Shown one piece after another: positions 3,961 to 19,645 of a DNA stretch of 51,147 bases. This DNA comes from Flavobacteriales bacterium (lineage in GTDB: Bacteria > Bacteroidota > Bacteroidia > Flavobacteriales_C > GCA-002722245), in assembly GCA_023251075.1 (NCBI GenBank), contig JAHEZM010000024.1:1-51147 (forward strand). The letters run 5' to 3'. Under the pieces are notes generated by a model. It saw nothing but the letters and a program-made list of their open reading frames with translations. It was not told the DNA's origin and searched no databases. Numbering within the stretch: position 1 is the first letter of the stretch; every line of letters starts with the position of its first letter. Position numbers and translations under genes: made by a program.

Positions 3961-6681
3961 CTAATAATTTAAGTTGGGCGACAACCATTTTTCAATGTAA
4001 GCAATCGATTGTTTTTTACGTTTGGCATAGCTTTCCACCTGATCTCTTTCGATTCTTCCTATCCCAAAATATTTACTTTGATGATGTGCAAAATACCAAC
4101 CGCTTACAGAGGATGCAGGATACATTGCTAAACTATCGGTTAATGCAATACCTGCATTTTTTTCTGCATCTAATAATTTAAAGAGGGTATGTTTTTCGGT
4201 GTGGTCGGGACAAGCAGGATAGCCTGGTGCCGGACGAATTCCTTTGTATTCCTCTTTGATTAAATCGTCGTTGCACAATTGTTCTGTGGCAGCGTATCCC
4301 CAAATTTGTTTACGTACTTTTTCGTGCATCAATTCAGTAAATGCTTCGGCTAATCTGTCGGCTAAAGCTTTTATTAAAATGCTATTGAAATCATCGTGGT
4401 CTTTTTCAAAACGTTCGATGTGTTCTTCAATTCCCAATCCGGTTGTTACTGCAAAACCGCCCATATAATCTTTCAATCCTGTTTCTTTGGGGGCAACGAA
4501 ATCGGCTAAAGACATGTTGTGCTCGCCTCCTGCTTTTTTGCTTTGCTGACGAATCATGTGAAATTTATCGAGCACTGTTGTTCTGCTTTCGTCGGTGTAC
4601 AATTCAATATCATCACCTACTGCGTTAGCAGGCCAGATACCAATTACCGCTTTATTTTTCAACCACTTTTCTCTCACGAGTTGTTGCAACATTTTTTGAG
4701 CATCACTAAATAATTCCTTTGCTTGAGCACCTACTACTTCGTCTTCTAAAATTCTAGGGAACTTACCATGCAATTCCCAGGTTTGAAAGAAGGGTGTCCA
4801 ATCTATATAAGGCACAATTTCCTCTAACGTTACATCTTCGATCACTTTTATTCCCACAAATTTTGGTTTGTGAATGTCTTCAGCTTTCCATTCAATAGGA
4901 AATTTATTGGCTTGTGCATCTTCTAAAGAGATAGTATCTTTTTGTGCTTTTTTCTTCGCGTGATTTTCTCTCATGCGAATATATTCCTGCTGAATATCTT
5001 CTACATATTTTTGTTTACCATCGCCCAACAATGAATTGGCAACGGTTACAGCGCGTGATGCATCGAGCACGTGCACCGCTTGTCCGTTGGTGTAATTCTG
5101 TTCAATTTTTACAGCAGTATGTAATTTAGAAGTAGTCGCACCACCAATCAATAAAGGAATAGAGAATCCTTCACGTTGCATTTCTTTAGCCACATAAACC
5201 ATTTCGTCTAATGACGGAGTGATTAATCCGCTTAAGCCAATAATATCTACATCGTGTTTTTTTGCTTCCGCTAAAATTTTATCACAGGAAACCATCACAC
5301 CGATATCGATGATCTCGTAGTTGTTACAGGCCAATACAACACCCACAATATTTTTTCCGATATCGTGTACGTCGCCTTTCACTGTAGCCATTAATATTTT
5401 ACCTTGTTTCTTGGCTGCTTCCGATTTATCGGCTTCTAAGAAAGGAAGTAGATACGCCACTGCTTTTTTCATCACACGCGCACTTTTTACCACCTGAGGC
5501 AAGAACATTTTACCGCTTCCGAATAAATCTCCTACTACATTCATACCGTCCATTAAGGGACCTTCGATGATATGTAACGGACGCTTGTAATTGTGTCGGG
5601 CTTCTTCTACATCTATCTCTACGAAATCGGCAATACCTTTTACCAATGCATGTTCCAAACGTTTTTCTACCGTGTCGCTTCTCCATGCATCGTCGGCTTT
5701 TTTCTCTTTGGCTCCACCTTTTACCGATTCGGCAAATTCCATCAAACGTTCTGTGGCATCGTCTCTTCTATCGAGTAAAACATCTTCAACACGTTCCAAT
5801 AAATCTTTATTGATATCGTCGTACACTTCAATCATGGCAGGATTAACGATACCCATATCCATACCTTCATTGATGGCGTGATACAAGAAGGCCGAGTGCA
5901 TCGCTTCACGCACCGGATTGTTACCGCGGAACGAGAACGATACGTTACTTACACCACCGCTAACGTGCGCTGCCGGCAGGTTTTCGCGCACCCAACGTGT
6001 AGCTTTAAAGAAGTCGATGGCATTTTTTCTATGCTCATCCATCCCTGTTGCTACCGGAAAAATATTTAAGTCGAAGATGATATCTTGCGGCGCAAATTTT
6101 ACTTTGGGCCCCACTAAAATATCGTATGATCGCTGTACAATTTCTACTCTACGTTCGTAGTTGTCGGCTTGTCCCACTTCATCAAAAGCCATTACAATTA
6201 CTGCTCCGCCGTATTTTTTAATTTGTTTGGCTTCCCAAATGAAACGTTCTTCACCCGCTTTTAGAGAGATGGAGTTGACGATACATTTTCCCTGCACACA
6301 CTTCAAACCTTCTTCAATGATCTCCCATTTAGAGGAGTCGATCATGATAGGCACTTTAGAAATATCGGGTTCGGCTGCAATCAAATTCAAAAAGCGTTTC
6401 ATACTTTCTACACCATCGATCATCCCTTCATCCATGTTGATATCGATAACTTGCGCACCACCTTCTACCTGGTCGCGGGCAACGGTTAACGCTTCATCAA
6501 ATTTTTCTTCTTTGATGAGACGCAAGAAAGCTTTAGAACCGGTAACGTTGGTACGTTCACCGATGTTTACAAAAAGCAGATCAGGTGTAACCACCAAAGG
6601 TTCTAATCCGCTCAAACGTAGAGGTGGATAGTTGTGCCATTTGTATTGGTATTTGCCTTTGTAATCGGGATGGATGGACAT
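3961..6681 (-). CDS. metH: Methionine synthase, C-terminal part (folate-, B12- and AdoMet-binding modules)
   Basis: This 906-residue protein is the second part of cobalamin-dependent methionine synthase. In order it has the methyltetrahydrofolate (pterin) domain (about 1-330; [23 protein letters not shown]), the B12 cap (about 340-420; [19 protein letters not shown]), the B12-binding domain with the cobalt-ligand motif [11 protein letters not shown] (about 430-440) and [11 protein letters not shown], and the reactivation domain with [15 protein letters not shown] and SGWYFAH. It lacks the homocysteine-binding module, which is encoded separately at 7245-8264. Split metH genes are common in Bacteroidota. 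The two parts are normally adjacent, but here a GxxExxY cassette sits between them. No metF is seen nearby. Confidence 0.96.
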
Positions 6682-6698: not shown

Positions 6699-6725
6699 TT
6701 TTAACCACAGAGACACAGAGGTCAC
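6699..6725 (+). repeat. Left inverted repeat of the GxxExxY cassette
   Basis: This 27-bp arm has the core ACCACAGAGACACAGAG and pairs with 7217-7243, with a single mismatch (G at 6721 against the A-type base of the other arm). Degenerate copies of the CACAGAG unit follow at 6724-6730 and 6752-6787. Confidence 0.85.
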
Positions 6726-6809
6726 GGAGGTTGTATTTGTTATTTTTTTGTTCGCAGAGGCACTTTGTTTAACAGAGGTCACAGAGGGTAGGACTCGAAA
6801 TGATTACTG

Positions 6810-7205
6810 TTAAGCAGGAGTAGCTACTGGGGTATTTATTATTCTTTTAATTCCTTGTTTTAGTAATGCGACATTAAAGTTTATTATTAATCCAAGTTTA
6901 CAGTTACTAAGTTTTAAATAAGTTAAGGTCTGAGCCAAATGAACATCATTCAATTCATCGACGGCTTTTAACTCTACAATTAGTTTATTTTCAACGATCA
7001 AATCAATTCTCAATCCGCTTTCCAATTCAATTCCATCATAGCGTATTGGTAACATGAATTCTTTATGTGTTGACAGACCAGATTTTTTTAATTCATAAAA
7101 TAAACATTCGTGATAGACTTTCTCGAGCAATCCTGGGCCTAGGGCTCTGTGAACTCTAATTGCGCAAGCAATCACCTCTGTGGCTATTTTATTTTCTTCG
7201 TCCAT
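6810..7205 (-). CDS. GxxExxY protein (PD-(D/E)XK-like family)
   Basis: The 131-residue protein carries the family signature GLLEKVY (G25, E28, Y31) and the conserved region RIDLIVENKLIVELKAV (about residues 66-82), followed by HLAQTLTYLKL. The E-x-K inside the latter resembles a PD-(D/E)XK nuclease core, and the family is often placed in that clan. The biochemical function is unknown. The family is found scattered in environmental genomes. The gene interrupts the metH operon on the same strand and fills a cassette flanked by CACAGAG inverted repeats. It may be transcribed from the upstream SAM-riboswitch promoter. Confidence 0.9.
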   Translation of the reverse strand: MDEENKIATEVIACAIRVHRALGPGLLEKVYHECLFYELKKSGLSTHKEFMLPIRYDGIELESGLRIDLIVENKLIVELKAVDELNDVHLAQTLTYLKLSNCKLGLIINFNVALLKQGIKRIINTPVATPA

Positions 7206-7216
7206 TTATAATCTCT

Positions 7217-7243
7217 GTGATCTCTGTGTCTCTGTGGTTAAAA
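7217..7243 (-). repeat. Right inverted repeat of the GxxExxY cassette
   Basis: This arm reads CTCTGTGTCTCTGTGGTT on the plus strand and is the reverse complement of 6699-6725 with one mismatch. It ends one base before the stop codon of the N-terminal methionine synthase gene (7245-7247), so the insertion falls exactly in the intergenic space. Confidence 0.85.
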
Positions 7244-7244
7244 T

Positions 7245-8264
7245 TTACACTACCTCAGCATTCAACTGAATTACTTTTCGTGGTTTGTACTGCGCGGCAA
7301 TTTCTGCAATGGCCTTAATATGCGCAGGGGTGGTACCGCAACAACCACCAATGATATTCATTAAGCCTTTATCTAAAAACTCTTTGATTTGCTTTTGCAT
7401 GTCGGATGGAGATTCATCATATTCCCCCATTTCATTAGGTAAACCCGCATTCGGATGTGCACTGATTCCGAAAGGAGTGTTGGCTGACAATACTTCCAAA
7501 TACGGTCTCATCATACTGGCTCCTAAAGCGCAGTTGAATCCAACGCTCAATAAATCCATGTGAGAAACCGATGCTAAAAATGCTTCTGCTGTTTGTCCCG
7601 ATAGTGTTCTTCCCGATGCATCGGTAATGGTACCAGAGATCATCACCGGAAGATTGGTTCCTAATGCTTCCTGCACTTCACTAATGGCAAACATTGCTGC
7701 CTTTGCATTTAATGTATCAAAGATGGTTTCTACTAATAAAATATCTACTCCGCCTTCTATTAATGCTTTTACTTGTTCGCTGTAAGCATTTACCAATTGA
7801 TCGAAAGTAACTGCTCTATACCCAGGGTCGTTCACATCGGGCGACATAGACGCTGTTCTATTTGTGGGACCGATAGAACCTGCTACATAGCGTGGTTTAT
7901 TAGGATTTTTAAGCGTGAATTCATCGCAAGCTTCTTTGGCAATTTTGGCCGATTGGAAGTTGATATCGTATACTGCATGTTCCAATTTATAATCGGCTTG
8001 GGCAATCCATGTACCACTAAAAGTATTGGTTTCCAGAATATCGGCACCTGCTTCTAAATACTGGCAATGAATTTCCTTTAATACATCGGGACGCGATATG
8101 CCCACCAAGTCATTATTCCCTTTTAAGGAATGCGGATGATCTTTAAATTTTTCACCACGAAAATCTTCTTCGGTCAATTGATAGGTTTGTATCAAACTTC
8201 CCATAGCACCATCAAGAACAAGAATGCGTTCTTTCAGTACTTCTCTTACGTCTGGTTTATTCAT
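7245..8264 (-). CDS. metH: Methionine synthase, N-terminal homocysteine-binding module
   Basis: The protein is a homocysteine S-methyltransferase domain of 339 residues, matching the first module of MetH. It starts with [14 protein letters not shown]. The three zinc-binding cysteines are present: one in GFNCALGA (about residue 244) and two in [11 protein letters not shown] (about 309-310). The frame also opens 7 codons earlier (8285), but that start lies in the T-run of the intrinsic terminator, so ATG at 8264 is chosen. The gene is the first of the run and is directly controlled by the SAM-I riboswitch at 8357-8456. It works with the C-terminal protein encoded at 3961-6681 to make methionine from homocysteine. 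Confidence 0.95.
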
Positions 8265-8283
8265 AATCTTAAAGTATAAAAAC

Positions 8284-8315
8284 AAAAAAGCCCTTCCTGA
8301 ATCTCAAGAAGGGCT
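8284..8315 (-). terminator. Intrinsic terminator of the SAM riboswitch
   Basis: Read on the minus strand, AGCCCTTC (8315-8308) pairs with GAAGGGCT (8296-8289). The stem can extend by four more pairs to a 3-nt loop, and it is followed by a run of six T (8289-8284). It lies between the riboswitch aptamer and the metH start codon, which is the arrangement expected for transcription control of an S-box riboswitch. Confidence 0.9.
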
Positions 8316-8356
8316 GTATAAGTTAATGCGATAAATCTTTTTAAAATTTACTGTAT

Positions 8357-8456
8357 CTTATTTTGCCCTTTGCAGGGTTGGATTTAGCACCTGTTCCAAT
8401 TAAGGAGTGGTTGCCAAGACATCGTAGGGCCAAATCCCTCCGTCTTTCTTAATAAG
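8357..8456 (-). promoter_or_regulatory. SAM-I (S-box) riboswitch aptamer
   Basis: The minus strand reads CTTATTAAGA, then GGAGGGATTTGGCCCTACGA, TCTTGGCAACC, GGTGCTAAATCC and finally AAAATAAG. These match the S-box landmarks: P1 strands at both ends (CTTATT with AATAAG), the AAGA kink-turn start, the GGAGGGA-TGGCCC P2/P3 segment, the conserved GGCAACC and the GGTGCTAAATCC of P3/P4. The aptamer is followed by an intrinsic terminator and the first methionine synthase gene. SAM binding should favour termination and switch off methionine synthesis. The distance from aptamer to terminator leaves about 40 nt for an anti-terminator. Confidence 0.95.
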
Positions 8457-8479
8457 TATAGTGTAAAAGAACGATGACG

Positions 8480-19282: not shown

Positions 19283-19645
19283 GTGTTCGATTTCCAAAAA
19301 CTTGATGTTTATCAAAAAGCTAAGTCATTTTGCAAAGACATCACCATCGCTATTAATACTCAGAAATTTGATCGCACTACCAATGACCAACTTCGTAGAG
19401 CATCATTTAGCGTTATGTTGAATATTGCAGAAGGAGCTTCTCGTTTTAGCAATAAAGACAGAAGAAATTTCCTGGTAATTTCCAGAGGAAGTGTTTTAGA
19501 ATGTGTTGCTATTCTTGAATATTTGAGAGAAGTAAATGCGATAACATTAGAATCTTTTCAATTTTATTATTGTAGATTGGAAGAACTTTCGAAAATGCTT
19601 TTTGCGCTAATTAGAAAATTAGAAGAAAAGCAAAATGCTGTTTAA
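19283..19645 (+). CDS. Four-helix-bundle protein (23S rRNA intervening-sequence type)
   Basis: The 120-residue protein begins with FDFQKLDVYQKAKSF and has the family motifs QLRRASFSVMLNIAEG (about residues 36-51), FLVISRGSVLECVAIL and a C-terminal LEELSKMLFALIRKLE. These match the TIGR02436/IVP four-helix-bundle family, first seen in intervening sequences of 23S rRNA genes and structurally like the Avd protein of diversity-generating retroelements. Function is unknown. It starts at GTG 19283. It is not in an rRNA gene here; it sits 35 nt after the palindrome cluster that follows tRNA-Phe, which suggests that it arrived as a cassette. Confidence 0.9.
   Translation: MFDFQKLDVYQKAKSFCKDITIAINTQKFDRTTNDQLRRASFSVMLNIAEGASRFSNKDRRNFLVISRGSVLECVAILEYLREVNAITLESFQFYYCRLEELSKMLFALIRKLEEKQNAV

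Follow-up and report, generated by a model that had tools for sequence, protein, structure and literature searches.

A GxxExxY gene enclosed by inverted iteron arrays between the metH halves of a Flavobacteriales bacterium: a candidate minimal mobile unit

GxxExxY proteins form a very common family without known function. In the window, as we call the whole 51,147-nucleotide stretch of Flavobacteriales DNA analysed here, a single gene of this family is enclosed by inverted repeats in a 545-bp unit (6699-7243) between the two halves of metH. The repeats are built from short iterons, which accompany GxxExxY genes widely and covary with residues of the encoded proteins. Recognition of the iterons by the GxxExxY protein is strongly supported by this covariation, from which we infer the binding itself. 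We give an even chance to the reading that the unit is a minimal single-gene element, defined by the protein and its own recognition repeats and copied in a REPtron-like manner.

The unit and its place between the metH halves

The inverted repeats (6699-6735 and 7207-7243) are 37 nt long, 89% complementary and 471 nt apart. An earlier note on this DNA had described them as 27-bp repeats; they are real, but slightly longer than was claimed. The window contains exactly two copies of CACAGAGACACAGAG, inverted relative to each other, whereas shuffled sequences have 0.06 on average. Each arm contains three 7-bp iterons of the CACAGAG type, separated by spacers of 1 and 2 nt in both arms. The features of the unit and of the adjoining host genes are as follows:

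3961-6681, minus strand: C-terminal part of metH (metH-C), host gene, 906 aa, downstream of the unit
6699-6735, plus strand: outer arm 3' of the gene, TTTTAACC with iterons CACAGAG (6706-6712), CACAGAG (6714-6720) and CACGGAG (6723-6729)
6737-6802, plus strand: inner segment (GTTCGCAGAGGCACTTTGTTTAACAGAGGTCACAGAGGGTAGGACTCGAAA), like both halves of the gene-less hairpins by local alignment scores against shuffles
6810-7205, minus strand: GxxExxY gene, 131 aa, with a predicted Cas4-like PD-(D/E)XK fold; E28, D68, E78 and K80 catalytic, T9 and I123 putatively iteron-reading
7207-7243, minus strand: outer arm 5' of the gene, in inverted orientation, with minus-strand CACAGAG iterons at 7230-7236, 7222-7228 and 7213-7219
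7245-8285, minus strand: N-terminal part of metH (metH-N; homocysteine S-methyltransferase, S-methyl_trans), host gene, 346 aa, upstream of the unit

The unit takes up the space between metH-N and metH-C except for 17 bp at one end and 1 bp at the other, and the strand is the same throughout. The fit to the intergenic space and the preserved operon polarity described in the earlier note were thus borne out, as was the GxxExxY gene being the only gene of the cassette: a single ORF lies between the arms, and its product matches PF13366 and TIGR04256. No DDE, HUH, serine or tyrosine recombinase was found within the unit, the PF13366 gene being its sole one. A SAM riboswitch (Rfam RF00162, 74.8 bits; 8355-8458, minus strand) lies upstream of metH-N, and the GxxExxY gene is therefore probably part of a SAM-controlled transcript. 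This riboswitch was the only Rfam match; the unit and the tested hairpins gave none, and a known RNA element was accordingly rejected as an explanation of either.

The metH junction of close relatives was compared for an empty site, as the earlier note had suggested. The GxxExxY gene was absent from the metH gap in 9/9 sequenced relatives of the genus and family, and in seven of these (congeners G002 and G004 and all five family members, G005-G009) the halves abut or overlap. The closest congener, G001 (metH-C identity 92%), likewise has no GxxExxY gene in the gap and carries an unrelated GC-rich palindrome there instead (CCCGTAGGGGCGTGCCCTTGCGGCCGCCC.../...GGGCGGCCGCAAGGGCACGCCCCTAC, L134); a similar palindrome, GTAGGGGCG, was observed in L167. 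In G003 and G018 the gap is occupied by a four-helix-bundle (TIGR02436) gene, and in G017, from another family, by a GxxExxY unit, which marks the metH gap as a recurrent landing place. Both G001 and G003 possess GxxExxY genes at loci other than metH. Within our preferred explanation, the unit would have reached the metH gap after the species split from the sequenced congeners. No clear target-site duplication was present at the unit or at eight gene-less hairpins, excision was not seen either, and no movement of the unit was seen in the compared genomes.

Flanking repeats and gene-less hairpins

GxxExxY genes were present in 37/60 relatives, with up to 20 per genome, and a strong match was found in 120/247 genomes sampled from the phylum. 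To see how such genes are flanked, 79 loci from the relatives and several phyla were analysed with a cut-off of z>3 for inverted repeats. Significant repeats flanked 57/79 GxxExxY loci, compared to 0/78 positions about 1 kb away, so the kind of repeat that the earlier note proposed to look for at other members of the family does occur there. Insertion of the window's gene as a unit, which that note had tied to these repeats and to the absence of the gene at the metH junction of close relatives, is supported on both counts.

An arm comprises 2-4 iterons, each about 7 bp long, of the types CACAGAG, CGCAAAG, CACAAAG, CGCAGAG and their kin, or of other classes. In the CACAGAG-like class the orientation of the arms relative to the gene was the same in 63 cases and reversed in 6. 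The pattern CACAGAG-N1-4-CACAGAG was matched 207 times in the 37 gene-bearing genomes and 3 times in the 23 that lack the gene (reversed control: 0), while the corresponding CGCAAAG composite pattern gave 313 and 27 matches, respectively, 23 of the latter 27 in G036. Several of the 23 CGCAAAG-N-CGCAAAG repeats of G036, in which no GxxExxY gene was detected, stand in same-strand arrays. CACAGAG-like arms were found for 0/18 GxxExxY proteins of the GxGF type and for 67/101 of the remainder (p=5e-8), and 6/18 of the GxGF type have GTCTGAAC...GATT arms. Judged from these arm sequences, the iteron class is set by the protein subfamily.

Among 76 units or genes, 58 are co-directional with both neighbours, which suggests that the units lie within operons, with the host operon probably providing their expression. 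Some units in Flavobacteriaceae occupy one locus in several species with their iterons kept (hemW-cyclase, map-methyltransferase and BatD-like-TPR; names read from ORFs), and long vertical persistence is therefore possible. Carriage by phages or plasmids was rejected, with matches in 0/50,697 phage records and 8/72,556 plasmid records.

The source genome (G000) contains one GxxExxY gene, together with gene-less elements that have the same ends, eight of them complete and one a half copy. These elements are about 200-224 bp long and all extragenic. Two of them were folded and gave extreme hairpins (z -16 to -20); the stems are near-perfect, with 63/63 bp in one copy. Inside the unit, the segment from 6737 to about 6802-6809 is homologous to both hairpin halves, with local scores of 16-39 in eight copies and a shuffle maximum of 15.5, and the unit and the hairpins are therefore related. 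This half-hairpin (6737-6802) had been overlooked in the earlier note. The source genome thus displays the REPtron type of arrangement, in which a gene is flanked by repeats that recur as gene-less extragenic hairpins. At the orthologous flanks in four congeners the hairpin was not present, the matches being one-sided only; exact two-sided empty sites were not found there. Just beyond one hairpin end, the left flanks of L002, L006, L008, L018 and L019 share a conserved TTTTACCACTAATATAA-like sequence, which may mark either an end that is longer and asymmetric or a preferred target.

The hairpins might instead be the older partner, as host-borne targets at other sites that the nuclease cuts, in the manner of homing endonucleases, and into which recombination repair copies the gene. 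Such a homing-type spread would go with the excess of gene-less hairpins over genes in G000, with the make-up of the gene-bearing unit, which looks like half a hairpin followed by the gene and an outer arm, giving the impression of a gene lodged in a hairpin, and with the residue-letter code described below. We nevertheless consider it unlikely, since repair normally restores both target flanks and only one inner half is present here, and since gene-less hairpins are largely limited to genomes with the gene.

In G034, most CGCAAAG hairpins sit inside a larger MITE, whose ends are GTAACTACTCAG/CTGAGTAGTTAC, and the copy number in this genome may therefore be due to another transposase. This MITE family (L265-L283) is about 200 bp long, and the enclosed hairpin is of the same type as the arms that flank the GxxExxY gene of that genome.

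The GxxExxY protein and its iterons

The 131-aa protein matches TIGR04256 (GxxExxY; E=1.3e-44, 151.3 bits, cut-off 35) and PF13366 (PDDEXK_3; E=1e-42, 145.6 bits, cut-off 22). No relative with a solved structure was found by sequence. An AlphaFold2 model (pLDDT 94.5) had Sulfolobus Cas4 SSO0001 (4ic1) as its nearest fold (Foldseek E 1e-3; VIA Z 10.1 over 98 residues). E28, D68 and K80 are present in 119/119 loci and E78 in 118/119. With these catalytic residues and the modelled fold, the protein is assigned to the PD-(D/E)XK nuclease superfamily. Cas4 and solo-Cas4 proteins (PMC5704561) provide the nearest solved fold and have the same D..ExK..QxxxY motif order, but the unit carries no cas genes between its arms, and its short protein lacks their four conserved iron-sulphur cysteines: in an alignment of 30 sequences, no cysteine stood at an invariant or almost invariant position. 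Without a conserved Fe-S cysteine set, the protein is not Cas4 proper. PADLOC returned weak, marginal matches to Cas4b (E 0.028) and PDC-M36A (E 0.006).

To relate the protein to its repeats, a mutual-information scan of protein residues against iteron letters was run on 63 loci with CACAGAG-like arms. The scan coupled I or V at residue 123 to A or G, respectively, at iteron letter 2, and E or K/R at residue 9 to G or A, respectively, at letter 5. Both pairings were recorded before new loci were fetched and, after near-duplicates had been dropped, were tested on 66 new loci. They recurred, with counts of 25:1 / 4:20 for residue 123 and letter 2 (p=5e-9) and of 5:1 / 5:18 for residue 9 and letter 5 (p=0.011), while the crossed pairings were null (p=0.66 and 0.58). 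The association was specific to these columns: p=4e-16 for residue 123 vs 7e-5 for the next I/V column, and p=4e-10 for residue 9 vs 0.01 for the next E/KR column. Pairs on supported tree branches agree in direction, at a number too small for significance. In the window protein, I123 with CACAGAG fits the code, and T9 gives no prediction. GC bias was rejected as the source of the code, both pairings holding in each GC half and standing out from all like columns.

The two arms of a locus were also compared with each other. Their iterons agree (90%), and spacer length agrees in 36/45 (14.8 expected), while spacer letters agree in 41% vs 36% by chance. Matched iterons and spacer lengths together with unmatched spacer letters argue for protein binding rather than a paired stem; an RNA or single-stranded DNA stem was rejected as the constraint on the gene-bearing arms, as the spacers do not pair across them. 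Very probably, by the pattern of residues and letters, the GxxExxY protein reads its own repeats.

The earlier note saw in the unit something transposon-like without a transposase. There is indeed no known transposase; the protein, however, is better regarded as a candidate mobility enzyme than as cargo, because it tracks its own iterons and its nuclease site is invariant, and the gene is probably not a passenger. In a passenger scenario, an unrelated transposase or host process would move the repeats and carry the gene along, and the repeats would persist because their RNA stem loops the insert out of the operon transcript, as for rRNA intervening sequences. The G034 hairpins within a MITE are compatible with this, as are the parallel cassettes built on a four-helix-bundle protein without a nuclease and the capacity of the unit RNA to fold with its arms paired (z -4.2). 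It leaves unexplained, though, that protein residues predict iteron letters, that the catalytic residues are invariant and that the spacers are unpaired between the arms where an RNA stem would favour pairing, and we judge it very improbable.

Alternatively, the gene could be autoregulated or of a defence type, with the iterons serving as operators or as a nicking target for gene control and any mobility being incidental. Vertical persistence with arms kept in Flavobacteriaceae, the strong co-direction with operons and the PADLOC matches point this way. The matches are marginal, however, and no second gene lies between the arms; gene control also gives no account of the inverted two-sided arms, the gene-less copies or the differing sites in congeners, which makes this explanation quite improbable.

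A proposed mechanism, known systems and parallel cassettes

Returning to the minimal-element reading, we propose that a stand-alone Cas4-like nuclease binds the 7-bp iteron arrays flanking its own gene. It would probably bring the two arrays together in synapsis and probably cut or nick the DNA at them. The gene-bearing unit, as well as gene-less hairpins with the same ends, would be copied to other intergenic sites, where the unit would settle between genes of its own direction, with expression probably from the host operon. By analogy, GxxExxY may move the unit as RAYT/REP systems do. Only tentatively, with confidence just short of even, do we extend this to the family as a whole, in which GxxExxY proteins would mobilise a large class of minimal bacterial elements not yet described, recognising their own iteron arrays by a simple code with residue 123 reading base 2 and residue 9 base 5, and with TIGR02436 as a parallel. 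Counting against our best explanation are the lack of an observed target duplication or excision, the vertical persistence, the G034 MITE, the sparse tree pairs, the nuclease-free TIGR02436 cassettes and the G036 repeats.

Several known systems are comparable. REPtrons (RAYT/TnpA-REP with REP/REPIN; PMC3116915, PMC8266576) similarly combine few genes with flanking repeats and many gene-less extragenic hairpins, and their repeat type matches the gene type. RAYT, however, is a HUH tyrosine transposase (Y1 family), whereas the unit's protein has a modelled PD-(D/E)XK fold and PF13366/TIGR04256 matches only; REPs are palindromes of 20-40 bp, whereas the arms are inverted 7-bp iteron arrays about 0.5 kb apart. 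Because the enzyme is unrelated, the GxxExxY unit may work like a REPtron but is not one. Rpn/Transposase_31 proteins (PMC5350276) likewise belong to the PD-(D/E)XK proteins and have been proposed to promote the mobilisation of DNA, but they form a different family. Like the unit, MITEs and minimal insertion sequences are short, end in inverted repeats and have gene-less relatives that are shortened internally; the unit differs from them in having no DDE or HUH transposase, and no clear target-site duplication was found for it. Rpn/Transposase_31 genes are not known to be flanked by iteron repeats. Intervening sequences of 23S rRNA, which are cut out by RNase III (PMC4990558), resemble the unit in their single small ORF, complementary ends, sporadic distribution and lack of a transposase; they lie in rRNA helices with an S23p ORF, whereas the unit encodes a nuclease, differs in iteron class and is located in an operon of protein-coding genes.

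In the literature searched, from which subscription papers and preprints were mostly absent, we found no mention of the CACAGAGACACAGAG repeat, few mentions of GxxExxY and PF13366 (one in passing) and no description of such a small self-recognising mobile unit. If GxxExxY proteins do act on their own flanking repeats, this would explain their multiple copies at changing places, and both the origin of the CACAGAG/CGCAAAG-type repeats in many genomes and the role of the protein would be accounted for. The protein would also offer a nuclease of small size whose apparent recognition code can be tested.

Inverted iterons are as common around TIGR02436 genes as around GxxExxY genes, flanking 20/27 near and 0/27 at the far positions. 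Their iteron class differs, with CACAGAG-like arms in 0/27 loci; one example among L187-L215 from various genomes, L196, has GTTCAATGTTTAATGTTCAAAGTTCAATGTTAGC (34/34). As these cassettes share the architecture but lack a nuclease, nuclease activity is not a general requirement of it, and we regard them as a parallel class built on another protein. The rRNA intervening sequences (PMC4990558) are their closest known relatives, and in G003 and G018 it is TIGR02436 relatives that occupy the metH gap. Two small, mutually unrelated gene families thus travel or persist in one kind of cassette and reach the same operon gap. The window itself contains a TIGR02436 gene (19307-19624, plus strand) with short GAGTGTGA-like repeats upstream, although no significant inverted repeat was found in its flanks (z 0.1). 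Elsewhere, a rhuM-like gene adjoins the GxxExxY unit of L051, and a KilA-N-like gene in G003 (L164, C132) has GCCTGAAC..CACAGATTAACTAAGATT repeats upstream; judged from these two cases, further gene families may use such cassettes.
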